Of a stretch of DNA of 34,035 bases, positions 1 through 27,900 are shown piece after piece. Position 1 is the first letter of the stretch, and each line of letters begins with the position of its first letter. Origin of the DNA: a virus; IMG/VR virus record IMGVR_UViG_3300020428_000042, positions 1 to 34,035 of that record. One strand, given 5' to 3'. The position numbers and the translations under genes were made by a program. Below the pieces are notes generated by a model that saw only the letters and a program-made list of their open reading frames with translations, searched no databases and was not told the DNA's origin.

Positions 1-113
1 CAAGGATCTATGGTTGTCTCTGTTCAGCAGAGAAATTACGTCCTGTAAGTCTAATGTAGTCAGGTGAAGCACCTCTTGACCTTGCTGTTTTTTTATTCCA
101 CGGAGTAAATCCA
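1..113. other. left edge, no gene that can be assigned
   Basis: All three forward frames are open from the edge but close within 70 bases (stops ending at 48, 59 and 67), so the tail of an upstream gene may lie here; the frame cannot be chosen. A small hairpin (AGGTG-AAG-CACCT, about 63-75) is followed after a gap by a T-run at 88-94. It may be a weak terminator for the upstream gene. The GGAG at 102-105 is the likely ribosome binding site of the next gene. Confidence 0.4.
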
Positions 114-3179: not shown

Positions 3180-3568
3180 TTCATTTAATTTACATTTTAA
3201 ATGGTATTTTAAATATAAAAGTGTGTTTTATCTTCTTATTGACAGTCATTCTCAGGATACTACCCTTGTGTACCTTTTTAACCCTCTGATACCTAGTGAT
3301 CTTAGGCAGCGTATTATAACACGAGACCTCGAAAAAAGCAAGGGATCGCAAAGAAAAAATACATAAAAGGTCAGGAAATCTCGACGAGATCTCACGAGGG
3401 CAAATCAATCATTATATCACATCTCGTCGAGTTATGTCAAGTCACATCTCGACTAGTATATCACATCATATATCATACTATAAATCATGCATAAATCTCG
3501 ACCAGATGTGTGTGCGTATTCATGTCAAGATCAATCTTATTATATTGTAACATTTGCGTGTCATTGTG

Positions 3569-3576
3569 TATAAATA
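3569..3576 (+). promoter_or_regulatory. late promoter motif TATAAATA
   Basis: TATAAATA is an exact match to the T4 late promoter core and fits the NATAAATA form described for cyanophages. It lies 85 bases before ATG 3661, with a sigma70 promoter in between, so the 3661 unit may also be read late. In AT-rich DNA an 8-base match can be chance. Confidence 0.45.
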
Positions 3577-3607
3577 CACACACATCTCGAATAACTGCAC
3601 ACACCCG

Positions 3608-3643
3608 TTGCGTGTACTCATATCATATGCTATAATAAGAGTA
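3608..3643 (+). promoter_or_regulatory. sigma70 promoter with GAGTA downstream box
   Basis: TTGCGT (3608-3613), a 17-base spacer and TATAAT (3631-3636) with an extended -10 TGC. GAGTA follows at 3639-3643, and the start codon at 3661 is 22 bases after the G. This is the best -35 among the GAGTA-type promoters of the window. Confidence 0.75.
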
Positions 3644-3660
3644 ATCTCGCCACCAATCCC

Positions 3661-3819
3661 ATGTACCAGAAGAATCACATTAGGATAACGCTTGACTTAG
3701 AAGTCATGGAAGACTTTGAACCAAGGCAGATAAACTGGGATAAAATCTTCGATCTTCACTCTGGTGAGACTTGTGAAGCATATGTGGAAGAATTGGACAC
3801 GGCAGAGATAGTCTGGTAG
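3661..3819 (+). CDS. small acidic hypothetical protein, 52 residues
   Basis: The frame starts MYQKNHIRITLDLEVMEDFE and continues with PRQINWDKIFDLHSGETCEA and a YVEEL tail. The 'LEVMEDFxPRQINWxKIF' segment is a recognisable pattern among small cyanophage proteins, with beta strand then helix predicted. No catalytic motif is present. A strong promoter directly upstream and a leader of about 20 bases support a real single-gene unit. A possible hairpin CCACA-AA-TGTGG follows at 3843-3854 but lacks a T-run, so it is not called a terminator. Confidence 0.7.
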   Translation: MYQKNHIRITLDLEVMEDFEPRQINWDKIFDLHSGETCEAYVEELDTAEIVW

Positions 3820-3943
3820 TAAATATACACAAACAGATCCCTCCACAAATGTGGATGGTATCCGAACGCCCATTATAACATAACTTTACGCTCTGGCATA
3901 ATGTCTTATGACACTTATGTAATTGGTGAGGGTGTAACATTTT

Positions 3944-3993
3944 ACACGTAAACGTGTTACCACATATTATTACAGTTTGTTACGATGTGGTAA
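3944..3993. promoter_or_regulatory. two overlapping inverted repeats upstream of the 4023 promoter
   Basis: ACACGT (3944-3949) and ACGTGT (3952-3957) form a palindrome with two central A. TTACCACAT (3957-3965) and ATGTGGTAA (3985-3993) form a perfect 9-base inverted repeat with a 19-base centre. They overlap by one base and lie 30-80 bases upstream of the -10 at 4023, where operators commonly sit. The rest of the 3820-4054 gap holds no gene. Confidence 0.5.
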
Positions 3994-4022
3994 TATTTGC
4001 ATGCTTATACATTCCCATGCAT

Positions 4023-4037
4023 TATAATAAGCGAGTA
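4023..4037 (+). promoter_or_regulatory. GAGTA-type early promoter
   Basis: TATAAT (4023-4028), four bases, then GAGTA (4033-4037); ATG 4055 is 22 bases after the G. No -35 stands at 17 bases; a TTGCAT at 3997-4002 would need a 20-base spacer. Confidence 0.65.
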
Positions 4038-4054
4038 CCTACAAAATTGAATCT

Positions 4055-4471
4055 ATGGGAACCCGTTCCAGAATTGGTCTTCAATTAGAAGACGGAAGTG
4101 TACTATCAGTATACCACCATTGGGATGGATACCCTTCAGGGTTAGGCAAAAAACTTGTTAAGGATTACAACTCCAAAGACAAGATTGCAGAACTCATCGA
4201 CGGGGGCGACATGTCCTCATGCATGAGTACTCACAATTGGGATATGAAGGAGTGCGAAGAGCACGTCCAATATTATTCTTTACGTGGTGAGAATTGCCCA
4301 CCTGAACATCATGAGACGGTTGATCAATTTTTAAATTGGCAAACCGATGGTGAATATGCATACCTCTGGCGTAACAACCAATGGGATGCATGGGAGACAG
4401 AGAATTGGAATTCCTACAGGGAGGACAATCCTAAACCCAACATTCAAAACAGAGTAGCAATTCCTACGTAA
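4055..4471 (+). CDS. 'MGTRSRIG' phage family protein, unknown function
   Basis: A 138-residue protein begins MGTRSRIGLQLEDGSVLSVY, continuing HHWDGYPSGLGKKLVKDY. This N-terminal signature (MGTRSRIGx(3)EDGSVxSxYxHWDGYPSxxG) is shared by a broad phage and cyanophage family that has no established function to my knowledge. The conserved His, Trp, Asp and Gly near residues 21-28 could bind a ligand or metal. The C-terminal half is rich in Trp and acidic residues (QWDAWETENWNSY). It is a stand-alone unit between a GAGTA-type promoter and a strong terminator, so it is probably expressed early and on its own. Start and length look complete. Confidence 0.85.
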   Translation: MGTRSRIGLQLEDGSVLSVYHHWDGYPSGLGKKLVKDYNSKDKIAELIDGGDMSSCMSTHNWDMKECEEHVQYYSLRGENCPPEHHETVDQFLNWQTDGEYAYLWRNNQWDAWETENWNSYREDNPKPNIQNRVAIPT

Positions 4472-4493
4472 CGAATTGTATCAATCTCATCAT

Positions 4494-4517
4494 AGCACCC
4501 TTCGGGGTGCTTTTTTT
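4494..4517 (+). terminator. rho-independent terminator, TTCG loop
   Basis: AGCACCC, loop TTCG, GGGTGCT and a T-run through 4517. A stable UUCG tetraloop hairpin ends the 4055 gene unit. Confidence 0.9.
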
Positions 4518-4518
4518 A

Positions 4519-4536
4519 TGTTATCATGTAGGAGTA
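4519..4536 (+). promoter_or_regulatory. GAGTA-type promoter abutting a terminator
   Basis: Extended -10 TGT followed by TATCAT (4522-4527), four bases, then GAGTA (4532-4536); ATG 4553 is 21 bases after the G. The -35 zone is occupied by the terminator hairpin. Confidence 0.6.
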
Positions 4537-4552
4537 ACATACAATTCAACAC

Positions 4553-4720
4553 ATGGAAGAATTAAATGTTGCTAAGGTAATGATCAACTGGGCAAACATC
4601 CAAAAGCATTTACCAGATGAGAAGAAGGCAATGGATGCCTTTTTTGATGAAGTCGAACTTGAGGCAGCACGTCTTGAGATCACCTGTGATTACTACATGA
4701 GGGAGTTTTGTGTAACATGA
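4553..4720 (+). CDS. small helical acidic protein, first of a four-gene coupled unit
   Basis: A 55-residue frame reads MEELNVAKVMINWANIQKHL, then PDEKKAMDAFFDEVELEAAR and a C-terminal LEITCDYYMREFCVT. It is almost entirely helix-compatible and acidic, with two Cys in the last third. It is the first gene behind the 4522 promoter, and its TGA overlaps the next ATG (ATGA at 4717-4720). No family is recognised. Confidence 0.7.
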   Translation: MEELNVAKVMINWANIQKHLPDEKKAMDAFFDEVELEAARLEITCDYYMREFCVT

Positions 4721-4848
4721 ACACCTATGAGATCACATGGGATGAGCAGTATCAATTAATTAAATTATATGATCTGCTCAGAGACAATGGTATGATTGAA
4801 GATCTACCCCCTGAGATTACCACATTCTTTGAGAGGTTAATGTCATGA
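4717..4848 (+). CDS. tiny hypothetical protein, 43 residues
   Basis: It starts in an ATGA overlap and ends in another. The sequence is MNTYEITWDEQYQLIKLYDL followed by LRDNGMIEDLPPEITTFFER and LMS, probably two helices separated by an acidic turn. Length alone would not prove it; overlap on both sides and shared direction do most of the work. Function unknown. Confidence 0.6.
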   Translation: MNTYEITWDEQYQLIKLYDLLRDNGMIEDLPPEITTFFERLMS

Positions 4849-5012
4849 ATCAAATGGATGCGATTGACTTCTTAGGTGAAGTATACGCAGATTATGTTGT
4901 AAAACATAGACTGCCAATGGTATCAGCGGATGAGCAGGATTTTTTACCTGAACATGATGCTTGGTTACGTAATTTTAGCAAATTATGGGACTACGCACAA
5001 GAGATATCATGA
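4845..5012 (+). CDS. small hypothetical protein, 55 residues
   Basis: It starts MNQMDAIDFLGEVYADYVVK with ATGA overlaps at both ends. A helical, aromatic-rich C-terminus follows (AWLRNFSKLWDYAQEIS). No cysteine motif, membrane segment or known domain is seen. As the third of four coupled genes it is likely made in a fixed ratio to its neighbours. Confidence 0.65.
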   Translation: MNQMDAIDFLGEVYADYVVKHRLPMVSADEQDFLPEHDAWLRNFSKLWDYAQEIS

Positions 5013-5200
5013 TTAACTCTGAAGAATTTGGCATGACATTCTGGTTCAATGATGAACAGGATTTATGCTACTGCCCCACTTTTACTAGTGGTGAACCCGA
5101 CTTCGACAACACAGGATATGTTGAGGAGTGGGATGACTGGTCGGAAGTCCCTCATGCGGAACTGATCCGCATCATACAACGATTAGTTGCAAAATGTTAA
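5009..5200 (+). CDS. small acidic protein with CxC motif
   Basis: A 63-residue protein starts MINSEEFGMTFWFNDEQDLC, contains a C-Y-C pair near residues 20-22, and has an acidic, Trp-rich centre (VEEWDDWSEVPHAELIRIIQ). The C-terminal helix ends LVAKC. I chose ATG 5009 because it gives the ATGA overlap with the upstream gene; an ATG at 4985 in the same frame adds eight residues and is possible. It is the last gene of the four-gene unit, with a terminator 11 bases after its stop. The CxC and final Cys could bind metal, but there is no complete known motif. Confidence 0.7.
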   Translation: MINSEEFGMTFWFNDEQDLCYCPTFTSGEPDFDNTGYVEEWDDWSEVPHAELIRIIQRLVAKC

Positions 5201-5210
5201 GTCTTTATTA

Positions 5211-5235
5211 AATCCTCCGCAAGGGGGATTTTTTT
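5211..5235 (+). terminator. rho-independent terminator, GCAA loop
   Basis: AATCCTCC, loop GCAA, GGGGGATT (one G-T pair) and a T-run to 5235. It ends the four-gene unit 4553-5200. Confidence 0.9.
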
Positions 5236-5239
5236 ATTG

Positions 5240-5254
5240 TATAATACGGGAGTA
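5240..5254 (+). promoter_or_regulatory. GAGTA-type promoter abutting a terminator
   Basis: TATAAT (5240-5245), four bases, GAGTA (5250-5254); ATG 5275 is 25 bases after the G. The -10 begins five bases after the terminator T-run; no -35 is visible. Confidence 0.65.
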
Positions 5255-5274
5255 CACACGAGGCAACGTCTTCA

Positions 5275-5412
5275 ATGACTTACAAACTCACAGATGCAGA
5301 AGATGCCATCCTCGTAGAATGTTTATCATTCGTTCAGGACATGGGTATCCCCGATCATTTAGATCAAGACGCATTTGATTCATTATGGGAGAAGGTTTTT
5401 GCCACAGACTAA
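5275..5412 (+). CDS. tiny acidic protein, 45 residues
   Basis: The frame reads MTYKLTDAEDAILVECLSFV, then QDMGIPDHLDQDAFDSLWEK and VFATD. It is helical, acidic and has one Cys. It lies behind a GAGTA-type promoter with a leader of about 20 bases and is followed by a G+C hairpin (5427-5445). The 'DQDAFDSLWEKVF' end resembles short cyanophage proteins, but no function is known to me. Confidence 0.65.
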   Translation: MTYKLTDAEDAILVECLSFVQDMGIPDHLDQDAFDSLWEKVFATD

Positions 5413-5426
5413 ACCTCAATCCAAAA

Positions 5427-5445
5427 CCCCTCCGATCAGGAGGGG
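5427..5445 (+). terminator. strong hairpin, possible terminator lacking a T-run
   Basis: CCCCTCC, loop GATCA, GGAGGGG. The seven-base stem is as strong as the other terminators here, but the next bases are ACAATCTCC rather than T. It may be a weak terminator or an mRNA end-stabilising hairpin. Confidence 0.45.
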
Positions 5446-5469
5446 ACAATCTCCCCTTAATGATATCTA

Positions 5470-5640
5470 ATGGAACTGCAATTTACGTGCATCATTGAAT
5501 GTGCTCCCGATGATCCCGTCAACCCACATCATTTATGTGATGAGATTCAATCTTACTTAGACTCAGTGCCAGATAATACAGCACAGGTCACCAAGTATAG
5601 ATTGGAGAAGGATAACCACATCAGTTATTATCCATCATGA
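5470..5640 (+). CDS. small hypothetical protein, 56 residues
   Basis: It starts MELQFTCIIECAPDDPVNPH and continues HLCDEIQSYLDSVPDN, ending in TKYRLEKDNHISYYPS. A predicted beta-alpha-beta order with strands QFTCIIE and KYRLEK resembles a half-ferredoxin-like fold; three Cys are spread and do not form a cluster. The stop overlaps the next start (ATGA). No clear promoter was seen in the 57 bases upstream, so it may be read through from the 5275 unit. Confidence 0.65.
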   Translation: MELQFTCIIECAPDDPVNPHHLCDEIQSYLDSVPDNTAQVTKYRLEKDNHISYYPS

Positions 5641-5783
5641 AGACTACTTACGTAATCGAAGATGGGCAACTATCAATCAAAGATGATGGAGTTGACTGGT
5701 GTGATTATGATCCAACAATGGGTGCATCAGATGATCAATTAACTCGACTATGTGATGCTATTCTAGCATATCATCTCGACTAG
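5637..5783 (+). CDS. tiny acidic protein whose end lies in a repeat element
   Basis: A 48-residue protein starts MKTTYVIEDGQLSIKDDGVD and continues WCDYDPTMGASDDQLTRLCD. Its last codons (AYHLD and the TAG stop) are supplied by the ATCTCGACTAG repeat that starts at 5773. Thus the repeat has either been placed into the 3' end of the gene or been co-opted as its terminus. The 'YVIEDGxLSIKDDGxDW' strand-turn-strand pattern suggests a small beta structure. Function unknown. Confidence 0.65.
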   Translation: MKTTYVIEDGQLSIKDDGVDWCDYDPTMGASDDQLTRLCDAILAYHLD

Positions 5784-5838
5784 TATATCATTTGATCTCG
5801 ACTAACCAATCATTAAAAGATCATTAAATCTCGACTAT
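5772..5838 (+). repeat. cluster B of ATCTCGAC elements
   Basis: Three copies begin at 5773, 5795 and 5828 (ATCTCGACTA each time). The first belongs to a 19-base block identical to 3445-3463. The last one forms the left arm of the terminator at 5832-5862. The cluster bridges the end of one gene and the promoter of the next. Confidence 0.75.
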
Positions 5839-5862
5839 CATATCATGTGATAGTCGTTTTTT
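5832..5862 (+). terminator. rho-independent terminator built on a repeat copy
   Basis: CGACTATCA, loop TATCATG, TGATAGTCG and six T (5857-5862). The left arm is the third element of repeat cluster B. Confidence 0.85.
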
Positions 5863-5863
5863 A

Positions 5864-5872
5864 TGGTATAAT
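5864..5872 (+). promoter_or_regulatory. extended -10 promoter
   Basis: TGG followed by TATAAT (5867-5872) directly after a terminator T-run. It lacks the GAGTA box of its relatives and drives a much longer leader, about 120 bases, before ATG 6001. Confidence 0.65.
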
Positions 5873-8165: not shown

Positions 8166-8414
8166 ATGTTATCATCACTCATTCGCTGCAAAATTCGATC
8201 AGGTCTAATCAAACATGGTCAACTAACTTGTAGCGATTTAGTTCGCACTATGGGATTAGACCCCGCTCGTCATAAAGGCACAATCCACGGATTTATGCTA
8301 GACCTTGAGAGAGCAGGAGTTCTAAACGCTACTAAGAAAAATGGTAAGCGTCACCTCTGGTCAATTCGTCAAATCAGAAAAAGAGATCGTATCGCTTCTC
8401 TGGTTATGGCATAA
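8166..8414 (+). CDS. small winged helix-turn-helix-like protein
   Basis: An 82-residue basic protein starts MLSSLIRCKIRSGLIKHGQL. A helix TCSDLVRTMGLD, a helix KGTIHGFMLDLERAGVL and a basic wing-like hairpin (NATKKNGKRHLWSI) follow in the order expected for winged-helix DNA-binding domains. The tail (RQIRKRDRIASL) is also basic. It is probably a transcriptional regulator or other DNA-binding protein; a target cannot be read from sequence. An ATG at 8156 opens only a 25-codon frame in another phase and is rejected. The gene has its own promoter and terminator. Confidence 0.7.
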   Translation: MLSSLIRCKIRSGLIKHGQLTCSDLVRTMGLDPARHKGTIHGFMLDLERAGVLNATKKNGKRHLWSIRQIRKRDRIASLVMA

Positions 8415-12987: not shown

Positions 12988-15900
12988 ATGCAAAAAAATA
13001 GAGTAAAAGCCCGCCATTTAGTACAGGATCATGTGCCTAATTTTGTTAGGGACAATTATCCAGAATTTCAAGACTTTCTTAGAACCTATTATAAGTCTGT
13101 AGAATCACCAGGTGGTGCTACCGATATACTTAATAATATTGATCAATATGTAAGATTAGAGAATTTATCAGAACTAGTATATTTTACAGATACTACTTCT
13201 GGTATTGGATTGTTTAATGATACAATAAATGTAAGTGACACTACAGGGTTTCCAGAAAAGCATGGTTTAATTCAAATTGATAGTGAAGTTATCAGTTATG
13301 AATCTAAAACTGCAACTACTTTTGTTGGTTGTGAGAGGGGTTTTAGTGGAATAACATCATACAAAGGTGAGTCTGATGATAGTTTAACCTTTAGTGATAC
13401 AGAAGTATCTGAACATGTTTCTGGATCAGTAACATATAATTTACATGCTCTATTCTTATTTGAGTTTTATAGGAAGTATAAAGCACAATATACACCAGGA
13501 TTTGAAGACATATCCTTCTTTGATGCAATTAATGAGAAAATTATAGTTTCTAGATTAAAAGATTTTTATGCTGCTAAAGGTGCTAGTTCTTCTTTTGATA
13601 TACTTTTTAAAATAATTTTTGGTGTTGATATATCTGTTGTTAAACCTAGAGACTTTTTAATACAACCATCCGATGCAGATTATAGAATTGTTAGAGATTT
13701 AGTTGTACAACCACTAGTTGGTGATCCTAATGATTTAATTAATAGGACTCTTTTTCAAGATGAAACTGATGTTATTCAAAAAGCAACAGGTTCTATTACT
13801 GCTGTAGAACAATTAATTAAAGACAATCAGGTTTACTATAGATTAAGTCTTGATTATAACCCAGATATTGAACTTTTTAAGTTTACTGTTCATCCCAAAA
13901 CACGACTTACTGAAGCAGTTGGTTTAGGACAAGATTTTATTGATGTTGACTCTACTACAAGTTTTCCTGAATCTGGAACTCTTCAAACTACAGTTGCTGG
14001 TGTTATATACGATATTCCCTATACTTCTAAGTCATCTACTCAGTTCTTTGGTCTAGTTGCTCCTGTTGCACTTGATAATTCTGCTAATATAACAACACCA
14101 GACTATGCATATGCTGTAGATAATGATGAAAATGATATAAGAGTTAAAATAACTGGTGTTCTTGGTGATTTAATCTATGATGCTGAGGCATCAAATTATT
14201 ATTCTCCAGGAGATCAGGTAGAGATTGTATCTTTGGGATATGACACTCAGGAACAGTTATATAAGAGTTGGATTTTAAATATTACTCCTGAATATGATGT
14301 TCAGGAAATAATACGATTAACCACTGCTATTAATGGTGCTGCACAGTATAGAATTACTACTTTTGATCCTCATGTATTCACTTTAGGTGATATTGGAACT
14401 TTAACTTCTAGTACGGGACAGGTTTATCAGGTAAGTGTCCTTGCTGTTAGTGATGAGAGAAAATTTGATGTTAATTTACCTGCAAATATTAATCTAAGTG
14501 AAACCTTTATCGTTAGAAGAGGAATTTCTAAGGTTTCTGCAACAAATCTTCCAGATTTGACAAAAGTATCTGCTAATATGCAGAATGTGTATACTCATGA
14601 GAATAATGCAGGTGGAAGAGATGCATATGTTGTATCTTCATCATTACCAGATTACTTTAATACTCCGATTGTACCAAAGGATCAATCTGTACTTTTTGGT
14701 GGATCATTTAATGGATTTGAATTAAATATAGGTTCTAATCCGTTTTATAGTGGTGATGCTGTTTGGTATAGTGCTAATAATAACATTCCACTCAATATAC
14801 CTGAAGGTCAATATTTCATTAAAAAAGTAAATGCAAGCACAATCAATCTTGCAACTAGTAAATCAAATATTGCAAATGGAATATTTGTAAGAGTTTTTGG
14901 TACAGTAACTAATAATAAATTTGAATTGATAGATTTTTATGGTAAATCTATCAAACCACAAAATATAGTTAGAAAATTTAGTAAACCTGAGGTCTCAGAT
15001 TCTTCAGAGGTTACAACTCCAGGTCAGACTGGAATGTTCCTTAATGGTGTAGAAGTATTAAACTATAAATCTAGTGATTTAGTTTATTATGGAGAACTTG
15101 ATGGTATTAATGTTGCTGCAGTTGGAGATTCTAATTATGATGTTATTAATCCACCATTACTTCACATTGAAGACCGTATAGGTGTTGGTGCAACTGGTGT
15201 CTGCAACCTTACTGGATCATTAAAAAGAATTGACATTATTGATAAGGGTTTTGACTATGTAACAGATCCAACTGTAACAATTTTTGGTGGTGAAGGTAAT
15301 GGTGCAGAAGCAAAATGTAATTTATCTAAAGTTACTCATAAAATATACTTTAATGCTGCATCACAATATACTGATGTAAATCTTACTAATAATACTATTG
15401 GTTTTAGTACATATCACAAATTAAGGGATCAAGAAGAAGTAATCTATAAGAATGAAGGACAATCTGCAATTGGTGGATTAGTAGATAAGTCAATTTATTT
15501 TGCTAATATAATTGATGATCGAACAATCAAACTTCATAATACTTATGAAAATGCTATTTCTGGTATAGGTACTGTTGATCTTACTTCAAATGGAGAAGGT
15601 CTTCAGTTTATTGAAGCATATAATAAAAAGAGTATAGTTTCTTCTATAGAAGTTGTTGAAGGTGGTACTGGATATCAGAATAAGACCTTATACTTTGGTC
15701 CAGAACAAGTTAATATAAACAATAATTGTCTTGAATTAAAAGATCACAATTATAAAGATAAGCAGACTGTAATATTCATAAATGAGGGTGGTTCATTCCC
15801 TGTAGGTGTTGCATCTACTACGCAGTGGATGGTAAAGGTTTTAGATAAGGATAATATTAGACTTGCAAGGAAAGTTAATGTTGGTACTGGTGAAAGTCTT

Positions 15901-18900
15901 AGTTCTGATCACTTCTATGTGAATAATAGATTCTTTGATTTTAGTGACAAAGGAACAGGTAATCACAAATTAACTTATACTCCAATTACAGTTACTGTTG
16001 ATGGTCCTATAGGTGTTAGTACATTTGCTGGTCAAGATTTTAGAACAAGAATAAGACCTTTATTCACAGGATATGTTGATTCAATATCATTAAGTGAAAG
16101 GGGTACTAATTATGGTGATAGTGAGGTTATGAACTATAACCGTCAACCAGTTATTACTTTGATTAATGGTAACTATGCTCAGTTAACACCTCTAGTATCT
16201 TCTGCTGGAGAAATTATTGACGTAGTTATTAATAATTTGGGAGAAGGATATAATTCAGTACCAACTATTGAGATTGATGGTGATGGATCTGGTGCAATCT
16301 TGACTCCTATTATTGTAGATGGCAAGGTAACTGCAGTTAAGATTATTAATAATGGATTTGGATATAAAAGAACTAATACTTACTTAAGAGTTGTTGAGAC
16401 TGGTAGTGGTGCTAAATTTGAAGCAAAAATTAAAACTTGGAATATTAACCTTGTTCAAAGACTGTTATTATCAGGACAGATAGCTGCTGATGATGGTGTT
16501 CTTGCATTAGGATTAGCATCAAACAAAGAAATTGAATATTGTCATGCATTCTCTCCAAGAGAATTACGTAGGAAATTACTTTCCACATCAGTTGATATAG
16601 ATGGAAGTACTCTTTTTAGAGCAGATATTTTTAATGAAACCAATACTACAAAATATCACTCACCTATTGTTGGTTGGGCATATGATGGACATCCAATTTA
16701 TGGTCCTTATGGATATGCTAATAGGGAAGGTGGTGCTGTAAGAAGACTTAATACTGGTTATGAATTAAGAGTTGATGTGTCTGGAATTAGACCTCCAAGT
16801 TATTCATCTGGTGTATTTGTAGAAGATTATGTCTTTATTGGTGGTGGGGACTTAGATCAGCACAATGGACGCTTCTGTAAGACCCCTGAATTCCCTAATG
16901 GTACATATGCTTACTTCTTGACGATTGACTCTGCTCAGGAGGTTGCAGGACCATTTGCGGGTTATCTAAAACCTGTATTCCCTTATGTTATTGGTCCAAC
17001 TTTTAAAGGTTCATCAAATCGTTATAACTTTAGTCAATTCTCTAGTTTAGACTTTGTTGATATTAATACTACTGATTGGACTAGGTATACCAGCAATTAT
17101 TCTATTAGAGGTAAAAACTCTAGATATTCTGGATTTATTCAACCTAACATATTCAGTGAAGGATTTACTGAGGTTGTCTCTACAAATGCAGGATCTGTTG
17201 ATTCACTTAATATTATTGCTCCAGGTGATAACTATGCTATTGGTGATAATATATTCTTCAATAATGAAGGAACAAGTGGATCTGGTGTATATGCTCGTAT
17301 AGAATCAATTCAAGGTAAAAAAGTTAATAATATTTTTTCTTCTGTATACGAAAATAGTCAAGTTCAGTTTACTCCTGTACTTGGTAAAGGTAGATATATT
17401 GGAATAGGATCTACTCCTCACAATTATAGTGGTGGTGATATTGTATCAATTCAGAATTTAAATATTTTAGCAACAGAGTTTGCTAAAACATACAGTGTTG
17501 GTATTGCAACTAATAGATTAACATTAGTATCTGATGTTCCTGCTTCAAGTGCTACTGGAATTACTACTTACATTAATGTTACTGGTACTTTAACATTTCC
17601 AACAATTGCTGTAGATGATATTTACGAATCAAAAGATGAGCAAGTTAGAATTTTAAGTATTGATTCCAAAAACTCTAGAATTAGAGTAAGAAGAAATATT
17701 ACTGGTTTAGCAACAGAAACGAGTCATTTATCTGGTGCTTTCTTAAATGAAAAACCAAGAAAGTTTACTATTAATACTGGTTATACAACAACTACTCAAT
17801 ATAAACTTGATCGTATTCTTTATTTTGAACCAGAAGAATCTGTTGGACTTATAAGTGAGAATTTAGTTTTATATTCTGATCCAGTATCTCTCAGTGCAAG
17901 TACTTGGGGTAAGACAGAAGTAGCTAATGGTATAGGAACAATCACTTATTATGCTGATAAGACTCCAGATGGCAATATTGCTGCTGCTAAGGTTGGAATT
18001 GCTACAACAGTATCTGCTACTGATACATTTGTATTAGAGAATGGTGTATTCTCACTTTCAGGTAATGTTCATACAGTATCTGCTTTCTTAAAAGGAGAAA
18101 ATGGTGGAGAAGAAGTATGGATGATTCTACGTGATACTGCTGTAAATGTTTACTATCATCAAAAGATAACTCTTGGTAGAGAATGGAGAAGATACAAGTT
18201 TACTGCTACAACTAATGCTAACCCACATAAAGTAGGGTTTGGTGCTAATGGAGTCGCTGTAGGGTCAGGAACGACTATTAGAGCAACATTGAATAGTACT
18301 CCAACATTCTATGTTTGTGGTGTACAGGTAGAACAAAGTGAATTTATGTCTCCTTATGTTCCAACATATGATACACAAATTTTAAGTTCTGCTAAAAAGG
18401 TTGGTAAAACATATTTACAAAATCCTGCTGCAAGTGTAGACAGTTTTACTCCTGTCCCAAATGCATTTTATATTCCAGGACATGGTTTATTAACTGGTGA
18501 GAAAATAATTTATAATGTTGGTGCTGGTGGTAGTGGTCCAGCAGTTAGTGTTGGTTCTACAAGTTATTGGTTAACTGATAATACAGAATTATATGCTGCT
18601 GTTTATAACGATGAATTTGTTGGTATATCAACTAATCAAATTGGTATTGGAACTACTGGAACCTTTGTTGGTGTTGGTACAGATGATGTTGGAGTTTTGA
18701 ATATTGATAGTTTTGGATCTGGAACTGAGCATAGCTTTAAAACAACATATAATGAAATAATTACTGGTGATATTATTAAGAAGACAGCAACTGTTGCTAC
18801 TGCTTCTACACATGGTTTAACTGATGGTGATATTGTTGATCTTAAAGTATTATCTGGAATTCAAACAACATTTGTTGTTAAGTATGATGATGGTAATAGA

Positions 18901-21900
18901 AGATTGCTTATAAACCCTGTTTCATTTGCATCTACTAATGTTAATGTAACAAACAATTCACTTTATATTCAAAATCATGGATTTAGAATGGGTGAGAAGG
19001 TTATCCATAACTCATCTACACCTGCTGGTGGATTAGTTGATTCTGCAATTTATTATATTGTTGTTATTGACGAAAATACCTTTAAATTATCCAATTTATT
19101 TTATGATGAATTAAGTTCAGATAAGGATATTTCAATTGTTGGTATAACCACTCAAGGAGATGGTAGATTAAGTCCAGTTAATCCAGAAATTCAAGCATTT
19201 AGAAATAATACTGTTATATTTGATTTGTCAGATAGTTCTTTGGCAAATAGTGGATTCCCTGCCTTTGAATTTGATATTTACACTGATAAATCATGTACAG
19301 ACCCATTTTTTACTGTAAATGAGAATGTAGGAATTACTAGTATTGTATTAGATTTCCAAGTTACTAAATCTGGTGTTATTGGACAACAAAATGCTAACTT
19401 GAGTTTAATTATTGATGATAAAACACCATCAAGTCTTTATTATAATGTAAAACCTCTTAAGAACGCTGGTGCGTCTGCATCTAAAGTTGAAGCATTTAGT
19501 GATGACTTTAATGTTCTTAATCCCAATAGATTAACTATTGTTGGTAGTAAGTTTGATTCTTATACAAGGATTACTGGAGTAACTACAAATACATTTGATT
19601 ATACTATAATAGAAACACCAGAAATAAGTTCTTACGATGCTACTCTTGGTGAGGCAGATCTCAAGTATAATACTACTTCAACATCTGCTCGTGGTCCTGT
19701 TGGTGATATATCATTAGATTCTAGTGGATCTGGTTATAAGAGATTACCTTATCTTGATAAGGTTGTTAGTGTTGCTGGAACTGGAGCACTATTCCTTCCT
19801 AGAAGTTCTACTATTGGACAATTAACAGAAGTTGTTTTAACTGATATTGGATTTGATTATCCTGCAGATAATACATTAAGACCTGCTGCTGCTTTACCTG
19901 CAACATATAAGATTGAACCTTTATCTAAGTTTGACCTTATTAGAGTTAAAGATCCTGGAACTAATTACTTCATAGCACCAGATATAGTTGTTGTTGATGG
20001 ATTTACTGGTCGTGTTAATACTGAAGCATTCTTAAGATATGATGTTGGTGATACTGAAGTAGAAATTGTTAGAAATACAACTGGTTTATATAATGTTACT
20101 CCAGTTTTGATGCCAGTTAATAATCCAAATGGTACAAGAATTGATAATATAGTATTTGATGCAAATACTGGTGATGTTGTAGTTTCATTTGCAGTAACAT
20201 TCACTAGTGTAGAAGATTATCCATATCAGACTGGTAAACGAGTAATTGTTGAAAATACTAATACTCAAACAGCATTTACTGGTAGAGGATATAACTCTTC
20301 TGCTTATGAATATAAACTATTCACGTTAACTGATGTAGATGCAAATATAGGCGGTGATTTCCCAACAATTACATATAATATTAAGGAAGATTTACTACCT
20401 GGAGAAGATCCTGGTGTATTTGATAGTTTTGATTCTTTTGGAACTGTAACTCCAGAAATATACTTCCCAGAATTTGAGGTATTCTTAGAAAAAGACAAAT
20501 TTAAAAAAGGTGAGTTTATTACTGCTCAAGATAACAATACTGGAGTGGTTCAAGAGTATGATGAGAAGAATGAGTTCCTAAAAGTTAGATCTAAGGATCA
20601 ATTTAACAAAGGTGATGTTATTATTGGGCAATCTTCACAAAACCAAGGTTTAATCTCATCTGTTGATGGTATTAGAGGTCAATATAAGATTAGTTCTAAT
20701 AGTATAACCAAAAAAGGTTGGAAGAAGGATACTGGTAAGTTAAATCAATTCTTCCAGAGAATGCATGATAATGAATATTATCAATACTTCTCATATTCTG
20801 TAAGATCTCCAATATCTCTTGAAAAATGGGATCATTTGGTAAGTAATCTAAATCATACTTCTGGATATAAAAAATTTGCTGAGTTAATAGCAGATTCTTA
20901 TGACCCATCAATAGTTGGAATGGGTACAGGTCAGGATCTTAATGCTTTTATTGCAGTCTCTGATTTAACAAGTATTGTTGATCTTAATACTATAAAGGAT
21001 TTTGATACTGCTAGAGAAAAAGCAATCACAGTAAGTAATAAATTAGTCTCTAATGAGATTCTTTTTGGATTACCATTTTTAGCAAAATATCAAGAATTTA
21101 TTGGTAATAGAGTTCTAGCTATTGATGATTTTAGTGTAGATTTTGATGGTGATAGGAGAGACTTTGGATTATTCTGTGACGGGTCTCCAATTTTTGAACA
21201 AACCTTTAATGGTAGTGATGATACTATTGTTGATGTAAGTGAGGAATCAGTTAATCTTGGTAATCATTACTTTGTATCAGGTGAAGAAATTGATTATATT
21301 CCACCTAATAATGACTTTGCAAATGCAATTGATATTGTTGCTACTGACTTTGGTCCTGGTATTGGAACTACTACTAAACTACCTGGATCATTCCATGTGG
21401 TTAAATTGGATAATCAAAGAATACAGGTTGCTGCATCTGCAACAGATTCTCTTAGATTTAATCCTGTAGTTGTTGGATTTAATTCTGTTGGTATTGGTAG
21501 CACTCATAGGTTTAGAGGAAAGTCTCCAAATAATAGATTATTGATAACTGTTAATGGAACAATACAGTCTCCAATTGTATCTACAGCAAATACTCTTGCT
21601 ATAGGTTCTGTAACGGTTGGTGTTGGTTCTACACAAATAGGTGTAAGTGGTATTACATCAATCTTCAGTGGTGATTTAGTCAAGGTAGAAGACGAAATAA
21701 TGCTTGTTGCTGGTGTTGACAAACCAAACAACTTATTAACCATTAGAAGAGGATGGATGGGTACTACAGATGCATCCCATTCTGGATTCTCAACTATTAC
21801 GAAATATACAGGTAATTACAATATTGTTAATAATGACATTCACTTCTCCGAAGGAATGTGGGGTGATATTCCAGTTGGACTTGGAACAACTGCTACTAGC

Positions 21901-24900
21901 AGCAATAATATTGATTATACAGGACTTACAACTAGCAGTAGATTTAGTGGTAGGGTATTCTTAAGATCTTCAATTAATGAAGCATTTACAACTAGTTTTG
22001 TAAAAGCATATAATGAAAACATTGTATTTGATGACTTATCAACTAAGTTTAATGGTATTACAACATCATTTATTCTTCAGGGTAATGGACAAGATATTAC
22101 TACACTTGATGCAGGAAATGCTATTATTTTAATAAATGATATCTTCCAAGGACCACAAAGATTAGGTAACCAAGTTACTACTATTCCTGGTGATTATAAG
22201 ATTGAAAAAACTAACGGTGATACACAAACTCTATTAGGATTTAATGGTGGAGTAAGTGATTATAGTAGTAATAATGACATTAATGTTAATAATATTCCAA
22301 GAGGTGGAATTATTGTTAGTGTTGGATCAACTGATGGATATGGGTTCCAACCATTAGTTGCTGCAGGTGGTACTGCTGTTGTATCAAGTGCTGGTACTAT
22401 TACTGCAGTTGCTATAGGTCTTACTGGATCTGGATATAGATCTGGATTGCAAACAGTTGGTGTTGCTATTCAAACTAGAAGTGTAGGAATAGCAAGTTAC
22501 ACTTATGTTGGTAATGCAACTGTAAATGGTGGACATGTTACAGATGTAGTTATTGACAAGATTGCAAGGTTCTACAAACCAAGAAATATCATTAATGTTG
22601 GATATAGTTCAATTACTGGAATAACCACTGTACAGACAACCCAGAAGCATGAATTGGGTCTTGGTGAAGAGATTACTATTGTTGGTGCAGCATTTACTTG
22701 TGATTACTATCCACCAATTAATATTAGTAATGCAATCTATAATAATACCACTGGTATTATGACTGTAACAACAGGAATTAGTTCTGTTAACGTTACTAAC
22801 TTTGTTTATACAAATACTACTGGTATTGGAACTATTACTACTGCAACTCCTCACGGAATTGTAAAACAGACTGCTATTGGTAGAACGTTTGCTTTAGCAG
22901 GTATTGCAATGACCTGCGTTGGTTATGGTCAAACATTTGCAGTACATAGTGCTCAATATGATCATACAACAGGTATTGCTACAATCTTTACTGTTGGTAA
23001 TCATGGTTTAACTGCTACTGATGATGTTAAACTAAGAGAGTTAAACTTTACATGTCCTGTTGGTGGTGCTGAAGGATATGGACAACAATTTGGTATTAAT
23101 AACTTTACGTATGATAATATTACTGGTTTATGTACTGTAACTACAGCAACATCCATTAGTGGTGTTATTGGAGTAGGTAGTGAAGTTAGGTTGGATAATA
23201 TTGGTCTTAACTGTGCATTTGGTAACTCAGTATATCCAGATGGATCTCAGGGATATACATTTACAGTACTCTCACAACCCGCATCAAATAACTTTACCTT
23301 TAATGCTGGTATTTCAACTCTGGCACACACATATGTGTCTGGTGGTACAGTTAATGCTGGTCTTACTACATCTATATTCCCAGATGGATCACAAGGATAT
23401 TCATTCAAAACAATTGGTGTAGCAGCAACATCATTTACTGCTAATGTTGGTGTATCAAGTATTAGACATACATGGAATGCAGGTGGTATTGTTCAAACTG
23501 GTATTACAACTGATATCTTCCCAGGAGATGCTCAAAACTCTCCAACTGGAGATACCTTCCAGCTTATATCTGCTCCAAACGCAAATACATTAGTCTTTAA
23601 TGCAGGAATATCTACTATTCCATCAACTTATGTAAGTGGTGGTAGTGTATTACTAGGTCATAAGATGAAAGTTGGTGCTGAGATTGCATTAACTGGTTTG
23701 GGAATGACTTGTGGTATGAGTACTGAAGTTCATACTTATCCACGTAATAGAGATACTATTACAGATACCTCTGTTGCAATTATTTCAGATGGTACAGAGC
23801 ATACAGTAAGTAATGCAGTATATAACCCAACAACGGGTATTATGACACTTACAAGTAATGGTCATGGATTCCATAATGGTGATAAGATTAAACTTGCTGA
23901 GAAGTCCTTAACCTTTACATGCGATAAAGATAATAATTTAACAACACACTCTTATCCTAGAAAATCAGATCCTCTTTATAATAGATGGGTTGGAATTGCT
24001 AATACAACTGTTAATACCTTTAAGATTCAGGTATTAGATTCAATTCCTTCTACTAATACAACAGCACATACATTTGTATCTGCAACTGCTAGTGGTTTAA
24101 CTCATAATACTGGTAATATTACTTTAAATGTTGGTCCTTCTGGTCCTAAGCATCAGTTTACTCATACATTTGATGGTACAGACACCTTTACACCTACTGC
24201 AGCAGCATACAACCCTAATACAGGTGTAATGACACTTACCATCGCTAATCATCCATTTAAGAATGGTGATTTTGTTGGAATTGCTCAAAGTGCATTAACC
24301 TTTACTTGTACTGCTGGTAGTGGTAATCATGCTTACCCAAGAGCAACTGATCCAATCTATGATAAGTGGATTGCAGTAACTAATATCACTACAGATACTT
24401 TTGATGTTCAAGTCTTAGATACTATTCCATCTACAAACGTTGGTGTTCATACTTTTGTATCTGCTACAACTGGTGGAATTAGTAGATCTGTTCTCCATAC
24501 TGGTGGTGTTTATAATCATCTATTTGTTGGGGCAGATAATAATTCAGTTAGTGTTGCTGGAACAAATACTAGATATACTCCAACTGATGCTCAATATACT
24601 GCTTCTAATGGATCTCTAGTATTGACAATTCCAGGTCATAATCTATCTGGTGCAGCAGCAACAACTGCAACAGCAGCGACTTATGATGGTTCTGTTGGTA
24701 TTATGACAGTTACTGTTCCTGGACATAGTATTGCTAATGGTGATTATGTTAAGTTTGTAGATGAAACATTCACATTTAAGTGTGAGTTGGATAGTTACGC
24801 TACAGATCATAAGTATCCAAGAGCAGCAGACCCAGCAGGAACAAATTGGTTAAAGGTATCTAATGTTGGTGCAGGTAAGTTTGAAGTTAATGTATTAGAA

Positions 24901-27900
24901 AGCATTCCATCTACAAATACTGGAATTCATAGTTTTGTCTCTGCTGCTTCTAACGGTATTTTACATGCTCAAAGCATGATTGGAATTGCAACAGAATCTA
25001 TTAAACTATCATGTGATATGGATGGTCATGGTAGTGAGCATGTTTATCCAAGAACAACTGACCCAATTTATACAAAGGATATTGGTGTTGCATCAACAAC
25101 TGCTAATACAGTTACTATTGATGTTGGTATATCAACTATTATTCCTTATGGTGTATCCAGTGCAACATATGATCCTGCATCTGGTAATTTAGTATTGGGT
25201 ATAGGTACACATACTCTTAATAAGGGAACAACTGTTAAAGTTGCTACTGGATCTTTAGTATTCACATGTTCTCAAGATAGTAATGCTACTAAGCATCGTT
25301 ATCCAAGAGCAGGTGATCCAACTTATGCTGGAACTACAGTATCAAGAATTAATTCAAATACTGAGTTTGAAATTAATGTTGGTGTTGCCAATGTTCCAAC
25401 TTATTATAAGTCTGGTGGATATATGGAAGAAATTATTCTTGCACCTAGAGCAAATAATAATTCTCCAACAGGTCAGGATGTCGCTTTTGATGGAACTGCA
25501 GTAACTAATATTATTGATGAATATACCTTTGAGTGTGATTCTGGTGCATCTCCTTACCCACATTTCTATAAGAGAGCAGGTGAAGTTACTCAAGATATAA
25601 AAGTTAGATTTGATTCACCTCTTGGATATGAAAACATTCCTCTACTTTATTCTGATGATTCTAAAGTAGGATTTGGAACAGGTGCTACTGCTGACATTCG
25701 AGTTAGTAATGTAAGTGGTGTAGCAGATTTTGAGATTACAGATTTTGGATATAATTACGGAACAGATGATATTCTAACTGTTGCTATTGGTGGTACTGTT
25801 GGTATTCCAACGTTTATTACTAAAACATCAAATGCAGTTAACCCAGTAGTCTCTGGTGGTCGTTATCCACATACATTTGTTGGTGCTGCAAGTAGTGCTG
25901 TTATAAGTGGTGGTGGATATGATCATACTTGGGTAAGTTCTCTTACTAATGGGGTATCAGTAACAGGTGTTGGAAACTTTACACCTACTGATGCAACTTA
26001 CAATCCAACAACGGGTGATATGGTTCTAACCATTGCGGGTCATCCATATACAACTAGTCAAACTGTTGGATTTACAACGGGTGCAATTACATTTAAATGT
26101 TTAATGGATGGTGATGCAACTCTTCATTCTTACCCAAGACCTGGTGATCCTGTTCTTGGATATGGTGTAACTGCAATTACGGCAAAAGATACAAATACTA
26201 TTACTGTTAATGTTGGTGCATCTACTACTGTTGGTTATTCTGTTGATAACGCTACATATAACGCTGAAACAGGTGAAATGGTACTTACGATCCCTAATCA
26301 TGGATTAAAGGGTTCTGAGGACTATACAGTGACCCATGCATTGTATAATGCTGGTACTGGTGGAATGACATTAACATTATCTGGTATTACAACACTTACT
26401 GCACTTAATGTTGGTGATAGAATTAAATTTGTAGATAATTCAATTAGCTTTACTTGTGCAATGGATGGTAATTCAACTGTTCATTCTTACCCAAGAGCAA
26501 CTGACCCTAGTAGCAATAAGTGGTTACCTGTTGTTGGTGTTGCTACTGATAATATTGAAGTATTAGTTGGTGCATCTGGCACTGTTTACCATACACCTGT
26601 TGGTGCTGAATATAATTCAACTACTGGATATATGACTCTTGCAATTGGAGAGCATGATCTTATAGGACCAAGTAATCACACAGTAACTAATGCCATATAT
26701 GACCCAATGGCGGGTATAATGACATGTACTGTTCCTTCACATGGATTCTCTAATGGTGATAGGGTTAAGTTTGAAGATGGATCAATATCATTCAGTTGTA
26801 ACTTTGGTAGTGGTGGTACTAAGTCTTATCCTCGTTCTGTAGGTACTGGTTCAACTATTACTGACCCAATTAGTGGTAAATTTATTGTTATCTCTGATGT
26901 TACTGATGATACTTTTAATGTTGGAGTTGGAACTGCTACTTTAGGTATAAACAATCCACATACCTTCGTCTCTGCTTATACAAATGGATTACAGAAGGCA
27001 GGAGAACCAGTATTGATTGCACCTAATAGTATTAACTTCCAGTGCTCTCAAGACAATTATGCAACTACTCACCAGTATCCTCGTGCAGGTACTGATCCTA
27101 TTGCTGGTGTTGGTACTCCTATTACTGGTGTAGGTGATACTACAATTACACTCTTTGTTGGTATTGGAACTGATTCTGATCATAGATTTGTTGCTGGACT
27201 AAGTAGTGCAACTAATGCAGTAAGATCAGGTGGTAACTATCCACATACATTTACATCTGCAACTTCAAATGGTCTTAAGAAGGCAGGTGAGTCTATTCGT
27301 TTAACTGAAGATTCTCTTACATTTAAATGTGAGATGGACGATTATGCAACCGAACATACTTATCCACGTTCAAATAAGAATAAGCATAGATTTGTAAGAA
27401 CTACTGCTGGATCTATTCTACCTAATGTAGGAACAGCACTTACACCAACTGCTGCAGATTATGATGGTAATACTGGTAATTTAATATTATCATTCCCAGA
27501 GCATAATTTAACAGCAGGTTCTAATACTGTTGGAATTGCAACAGGTGGTATCACATTTACTTGTGAGTTGGATGATCATCGTACAGAGCATGCTTATCCT
27601 AGAACAACTGATTTTGCACATAATGCAACTATAGGTATTGCTGCAACTACTTTAACAACTATTACAATTAATGTTGGTAAATCAGGTATTACTACCAGTG
27701 ATCCAATGTATAACAATGCAGTTTCTGTTGGATCAACAAGTTCTAATACAATAACATTGAATATTGGTAAAGCACCTGCAGAAAAGAGATTTAAAGTTGA
27801 AAATGCAACTTATGATGGATTTACTGGATGGATGACATTAACTGTAGGACAACATAGTTTACATACTGGAGAGATTGTTAGACTTGCTAACGAATCAATA

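Follow-up and report, generated by a model that had tools for sequence, protein, structure and literature searches.

We analyzed a 34,035-base viral record from a T4-like cyanophage (IMGVR_UViG_3300020428_000042; this whole stretch is called the window) and found that it carries two clusters of a short repeat, ATCTCGAC, which probably serve as operators through which a phage-encoded regulator controls an early operon in a family of T4-like cyanophages, as judged from sequence comparisons. This reading draws on the arrays themselves, their promoter geometry, helical phasing and conservation, the genes that co-occur with them, and a predicted protein fold. The protein that binds the sites is most likely encoded by the phage, and the best candidate is a small protein of the AbrB/MazE fold. 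Both clusters lie within the variable small-gene block immediately 5' of the gp25-like baseplate gene (10674), which is accompanied by a gp6-like baseplate gene (11076) and by neighboring genes ordered as in other T4-like cyanophages, e.g., S-SM2 and Bellamy. How transcription is timed in T4-like cyanophages, which do without MotA, AsiA and Alt, is an unanswered question (PMC2984593). Because an operator has been defined and a candidate regulator is available in isolates growing on the laboratory strain Synechococcus WH7803, one answer can be tested directly. If true, it would assign functions to PHROG 661 as well as to a gene neighborhood currently annotated as hypothetical. In the open-access literature, we found no published description of such operator arrays.

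Exact ATCTCGAC occurs six times in the window (3378, 3446, 3495, 5773, 5795, and 5828), on the + strand only and in the two clusters only. A first-order Markov model of the window gave a mean of 0.26 copies and a maximum of 2 in 200 runs, never with more than one per 150 bp; the clustering of repeats in two places, as reported in the original prediction, is real. The nine copies claimed there are reached by adding three one-mismatch copies in cluster 1, at 3421 (ATCTCGTC), 3584 (ATCTCGAA), and 3644 (ATCTCGCC), a class that was only modestly enriched across the window (24 observed vs 14 expected). The 19-base block said to be identical in both clusters was recovered exactly (CATCTCGACTAGTATATCA, at 3445-3463 and 5772-5790). 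The description of the clusters as lying in AT-rich gaps held only in part, since cluster 2 is AT-rich (31% G+C vs 35% for the window) but cluster 1 is not (37%), and the 5773 site is not intergenic, holding the final codons and stop of an open reading frame (ORF; 5637-5783). ATCTCGAC makes up the left arm of a palindrome of 13 bp, ATCTCGWCGAGAT. The window contains one perfect palindrome (ATCTCGACGAGAT, operator 1 in Table 1) and one near-palindrome (ATCTCGTCGAGTT, operator 2), and in most of its sites the left arm is intact and the right arm degenerate (e.g., ATCTCGACTAGTA, ATCTCGACTAACC, ATCTCGACTATCA).

Arrays of the palindrome were also present in ~90 viral loci and in the isolates S-SRM01, S-T4, and S-SKS1, confined to one region and with up to 14 copies per record. 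The pattern TCTCGWCGAGAN{3,10}TATAAT matched at least 120 stretches in viral contigs, whereas the control with a reversed core matched 47 in total. Among the matches listed, at least three CTCGWCGAG within 400 bp were found in 78 of 118 test loci, whereas three copies of the control word were found in none of the control loci. All 11 CTCGWCGAG in the 240-kb genome of S-SRM01 fall within 85.57-91.0 kb, and other operator records were similarly locus-restricted and had almost no copies of the reversed control word. A repeated palindromic site is clustered at a single locus beyond chance. The 37 array representatives together hold 173 sites, with a half-site consensus of aAATCTCG on either side of a central A or T; the inner bases were set by the search pattern, the outer A and T were not.

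Typically, one copy of the site lies between the -35 and -10 elements of a sigma-70 promoter and another ~20 bp downstream. Among the matches listed, there were 71 distinct array promoters; the gap from palindrome to TATAAT was 6 or 7 in 62 of them, a second site began 16-22 bp past TATAAT in 50, and the preferred -35/-10 spacer was 17 bp, with TTGACA and TTGCAA the commonest -35 hexamers. A small acidic gene (gene A) usually begins at ~+30, followed by gene B (PHROG 12516). Overlap with the core promoter in a fixed geometry is a property of the array family; in the window, an operator lies within promoter elements only at the leftward promoter-like site 3440-3411. Distances between neighboring sites peaked at 21-22, 31-32, and 41-43 bp, i.e., approximately whole turns of the helix. 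The Rayleigh z at 10.5 bp was 12.7 for the 37 representatives (80% identity) and 3.4 (p 0.03) for 21 representatives at 75%, and because of this drop, shared ancestry explains part of the spacing signal. Graded identity thresholds were used since single-linkage grouping merged nearly all arrays and was uninformative for phasing. In S-SRM01, gene A itself (L232 7061-7198) contains two operators in frame, as Asp-Leu-Asp-Glu (GATCTCGACGAG), so the operators may constrain the amino acid sequence of its product.

The original prediction had offered three interpretations of the repeats. That of binding sites for a phage regulator is supported by the palindromic full sites, the fixed sigma-70 promoter geometry, and the approximately helical spacing, as well as by restriction to one phage locus, the lack of clustering in the host genome, and the linkage of most arrays to a gene for an AbrB-fold protein (see below). 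The other two, iterons of a replication origin and a mobile short element, found no support. Arrays acting as iterons or initiator boxes are very improbable: a spacing of about two and three helical turns would also be compatible with initiator binding, and cyanophage Syn9 has a single predicted theta origin (PMC2984593), but the cumulative GC skew of S-SRM01 does not turn at the arrays, no replication initiator gene is annotated near the locus, and the fixed -35/-10 geometry indicates transcription. Moreover, arrays are absent from the co-linear genomes of S-SM2, Bellamy, and SynMITS9220M01, which, like the arrayless S-SCSM1, carry gene B at the same map position. Least probable of all is local multiplication of a short element, mobile or repetitive. 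Some arrays do include tandemly duplicated units (e.g., G004 70117-70385), yet dispersed copies were absent from the genomes searched (the 11 copies of S-SRM01 lie within 5.5 kb), flanks of different copies are unrelated, and site positions are fixed relative to promoters.

It is also improbable, if slightly less so than an origin, that the sites are bound by a host transcription factor and that the phage copied a host operator. Sites for the host factor NtcA have been reported in cyanomyoviruses (PMC3037559), but a host regulon with the present site is unlikely because WH7803, the host of S-T4 and S-SKS1, holds 2 scattered TCTCGWCGAGA vs 3 control words. WH7803 and four other Synechococcus/Cyanobium genomes (psbA of Bellamy served as the host query) held 0-4 scattered and unclustered copies, about as many as of the control word, and arrays are absent from other phages of WH7803, namely S-SCSM1 and one S-CAM7 isolate. 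NtcA and Pho boxes resemble the arrays in being transcription-factor sites at cyanophage promoters (PMC3037559); however, they are host-factor motifs (GTAN8TAC, CTTAN7CTTA) unrelated in sequence to ATCTCGWCGAGAT.

A candidate for the phage-encoded regulator was obtained by subtracting the gene content of non-operator isolates from that of operator isolates, followed by a profile search. It is a protein of 56-59 amino acids with a PHROG 661 match in 34 of 34 members. Pfam MazE_antitoxin (PF04014) matched 18 of the 34 weakly (best E 6.2e-6), with singly tested members below the curated cut-off. A monomer model built from viral-contig sequences (predicted local distance difference test score, pLDDT, 86) had the swapped-hairpin beta-beta-alpha-beta-beta fold, and its top matches among solved structures were AbrB, MazE, SpoVT, and VapB. 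The gene is on the strand of the operator promoter and lies 2.8-6.7 kb 3' of it (9.9 kb in one case); three seeming upstream cases resulted from a wrongly called direction. Among records of at least 25 kb, it was present in 18 of 23 with operators vs 1 of 25 others (Fisher p 9e-8), and of the 15 loci for which 7 kb or more of downstream sequence was available, 12 had it. In two of the five array records without it, G007 and G013, the contig seems to end too early downstream to tell.

Several observations weigh against this assignment. Foldseek E-values for the 57-amino-acid protein were weak (0.04 and above), with match probabilities near 1. Since linked genes share ancestry, neither the co-occurrence nor the Fisher values can count as independent tests. 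Sf-CH8 has an AbrB-like protein and no array, while G001 (172 kb) has arrays and neither an AbrB-like protein nor a winged-helix protein of the type encoded at 8166-8414 in the window. In addition, searches of the window, the L011 record (18.5 kb), and the L014 record (50 kb) turned up no AbrB-like gene, and right arms are degenerate in the window's lineage. The operators might instead be bound by another phage protein, such as the winged-helix protein or some other small helix-turn-helix (HTH) protein of these operons, the AbrB-like gene being a passenger of the locus. We consider this unlikely, though it is the most credible of the alternatives. The winged-helix protein is the only one of the two found in the window's lineage, and all its occurrences found were in operator-bearing lineages and records, G001 encodes an HTH-like protein (99 amino acids, L322 12844-13143) 0.8 kb 3' of its array, and co-occurrence can arise from linkage alone. 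However, most operator records, among them those of all three isolates, are without the winged-helix protein, which rules it out as a universal regulator and contrasts with the frequency of the AbrB-like gene; relatives of the G001 protein occur in only two other loci examined, one of which (L087) is arrayless. The winged-helix protein is also found in a few array records with the AbrB-like gene.

Loss of the clusters from close relatives, which the original prediction had set as a test, was looked for, and position was retained in L007, L008, and L014; more distant relatives vary. Both clusters are at the same places in L007 and L014, and L008 has cluster 2 only, its contig beginning 3' of cluster 1. 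In all three, the sites are conserved islands amid diverged spacers. The terminator hairpin overlapping cluster 2 is retained in L007 and L008 and lost in L014, and site 3 forms its left arm in the window, L007, and L008. The gene 5' of cluster 2 differs between the window (5637-5783) and L007 (3814-4014) while the cluster stays; the cluster thus marks a recombination edge. We read the window's lineage as a derived state in which arrays were retained and sites are one-sided. Since the AbrB-like gene was not found and right arms have decayed, the binder there may be encoded elsewhere, replaced, or lost; the replacement is perhaps the winged-helix protein.

If the repeats are operators of a phage-encoded regulator, the 13-bp sites (ATCTCGWCGAGAT or variants whose right arm is degenerate) would control an early-type small-gene operon just 5' of gp25/gp6. 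With one operator filling the sigma-70 spacer and another at ~+20, bound protein would block host RNA polymerase, and further copies at approximately whole helical turns would permit the protein to bind cooperatively. The same control would extend to sites at a second promoter/terminator, 2-3 kb downstream, and the candidate AbrB/MazE-fold protein, encoded downstream on the same strand, would exert negative feedback on the operon. We infer all three elements of this scheme: binding of the site by the AbrB-like protein, a repressive effect, and the early nature of the operon.

The arrays recall the OL/OR operators of phage lambda, where a repressor binds multiple palindromes, one of them within the -35/-10 spacer of a sigma-70 promoter and the rest up- and downstream at approximately whole helical turns; as in lambda, leftward and rightward promoter-like sites occur in the same region of the window. 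Unlike the lambda type, the arrays occur in T4-like cyanophages and hold up to 8 sites each, and a CI/Cro-type HTH repressor was not identified here. S-SRM01 was reported to be lytic, in a paper that mentions neither promoter nor palindrome (PMC8557907). The candidate has the beta-beta-alpha-beta-beta pattern of AbrB/MazE (SpoVT-AbrB) swapped-hairpin regulators, which include MazE bound at its own promoter and the AbrB-like C68 of the virus-plasmid pSSVx; structures of this kind were its best fold matches, and its profile matches were weak. It differs from them in that the operator sequence is distinct, the gene is distant from the operators and not immediately behind them, and a MazF-like toxin partner was not seen, no detailed search having been made. 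In a jumbo-phage survey, AbrB-domain factors were encoded by a few phages (PMC7824862). As in T4 middle mode (MotA/AsiA), the activity of a sigma-70 promoter would be modulated by a protein of the infecting phage; however, MotA activates, replacing -35 contacts at the MotA box, whereas the array geometry suggests repression. Cyanomyoviruses are reported to be without motA, asi, alt, and modA (PMC2984593), and sigma-70-like early promoters, late promoters, and NtcA sites have been described in them (PMC2984593, PMC3037559). Conceivably, though this broader proposal is tentative, an AbrB-fold autoregulator acting on phased early-promoter arrays times the takeover genes in T4-like cyanophages that lack MotA, AsiA, and Alt, the window's lineage now having one-sided, same-direction sites and another binder.

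Table 1. Operators, promoter-like sites, and associated features in the window.
Feature	Position	Strand	Remarks
Operator 1, perfect palindrome ATCTCGACGAGAT	3378..3390		Conserved in L007, L014
Operator 2, near-palindrome ATCTCGTCGAGTT	3421..3433		In spacer of leftward promoter-like site 3440-3411
Sigma-70 promoter-like site TTGACA-18-TATAAT, leftward	3411..3440	-	Consensus match only, 12/12
Operator 3, ATCTCGACTAGTA, degenerate right arm	3446..3458	+	
Operator 4, ATCTCGACCAGAT	3495..3507	+	In block TCTCGACCAGATGTGTGT conserved in L007, L014
Weak copy ATCTCGAATAACT	3584..3596	+	Not conserved in relatives
Rightward promoter-like site TTGCGT-17-TATAAT, 5' of gene B	3608..3636	+	Consensus match only
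Weak copy ATCTCGCC	3644..3651	+	Near expected transcription start; not conserved
Gene B of unknown function (PHROG 12516)	3661..3819	+	Conserved small gene 3' of array in cyanophages
Cluster 2 site 1, ATCTCGACTAGTA	5773..5785	+	Overlaps stop codon of ORF 5637-5783
Cluster 2 site 2, ATCTCGACTAACC	5795..5807	+	
Cluster 2 site 3, ATCTCGACTATCA	5828..5840	+	Doubles as left arm of terminator hairpin
Intrinsic-terminator-like hairpin CGACTATCATATCATGTGATAGTCG + T run	5832..5862	+	z -4.8 in window
Extended -10 (TATGGTATAAT), no good -35, immediately 3' of terminator	5862..5872	+	Consensus match only
Small winged-helix-like protein, weak Pfam Penicillinase_R	8166..8414	+	Possible regulator in window's lineage

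A second leftward promoter-like site (TTGCTT-17-TATAAT) is located at 3313-3341 on the - strand, and a noncoding block (GATCTTAG, GGATACTACCC) at 3255-3300. Both recur 5' of gene B in cyanophages with or without arrays, and a small or antisense RNA is possible in this region; an Rfam search of the window gave no match. BLASTN of both clusters against phage records returned chance matches only, and an occurrence of TCTCGTCGAGA inside the predicted terminator of an unrelated phage (PMC5349666) was dismissed as coincidence. The first 51 bases of the window (1-51) are identical to positions 55982-56032 of Prochlorococcus phage P-SSM2, where they are unannotated. Immediately 3' of the gp6-like gene, positions 12988-29988 form one repetitive open frame of 5,666 codons.

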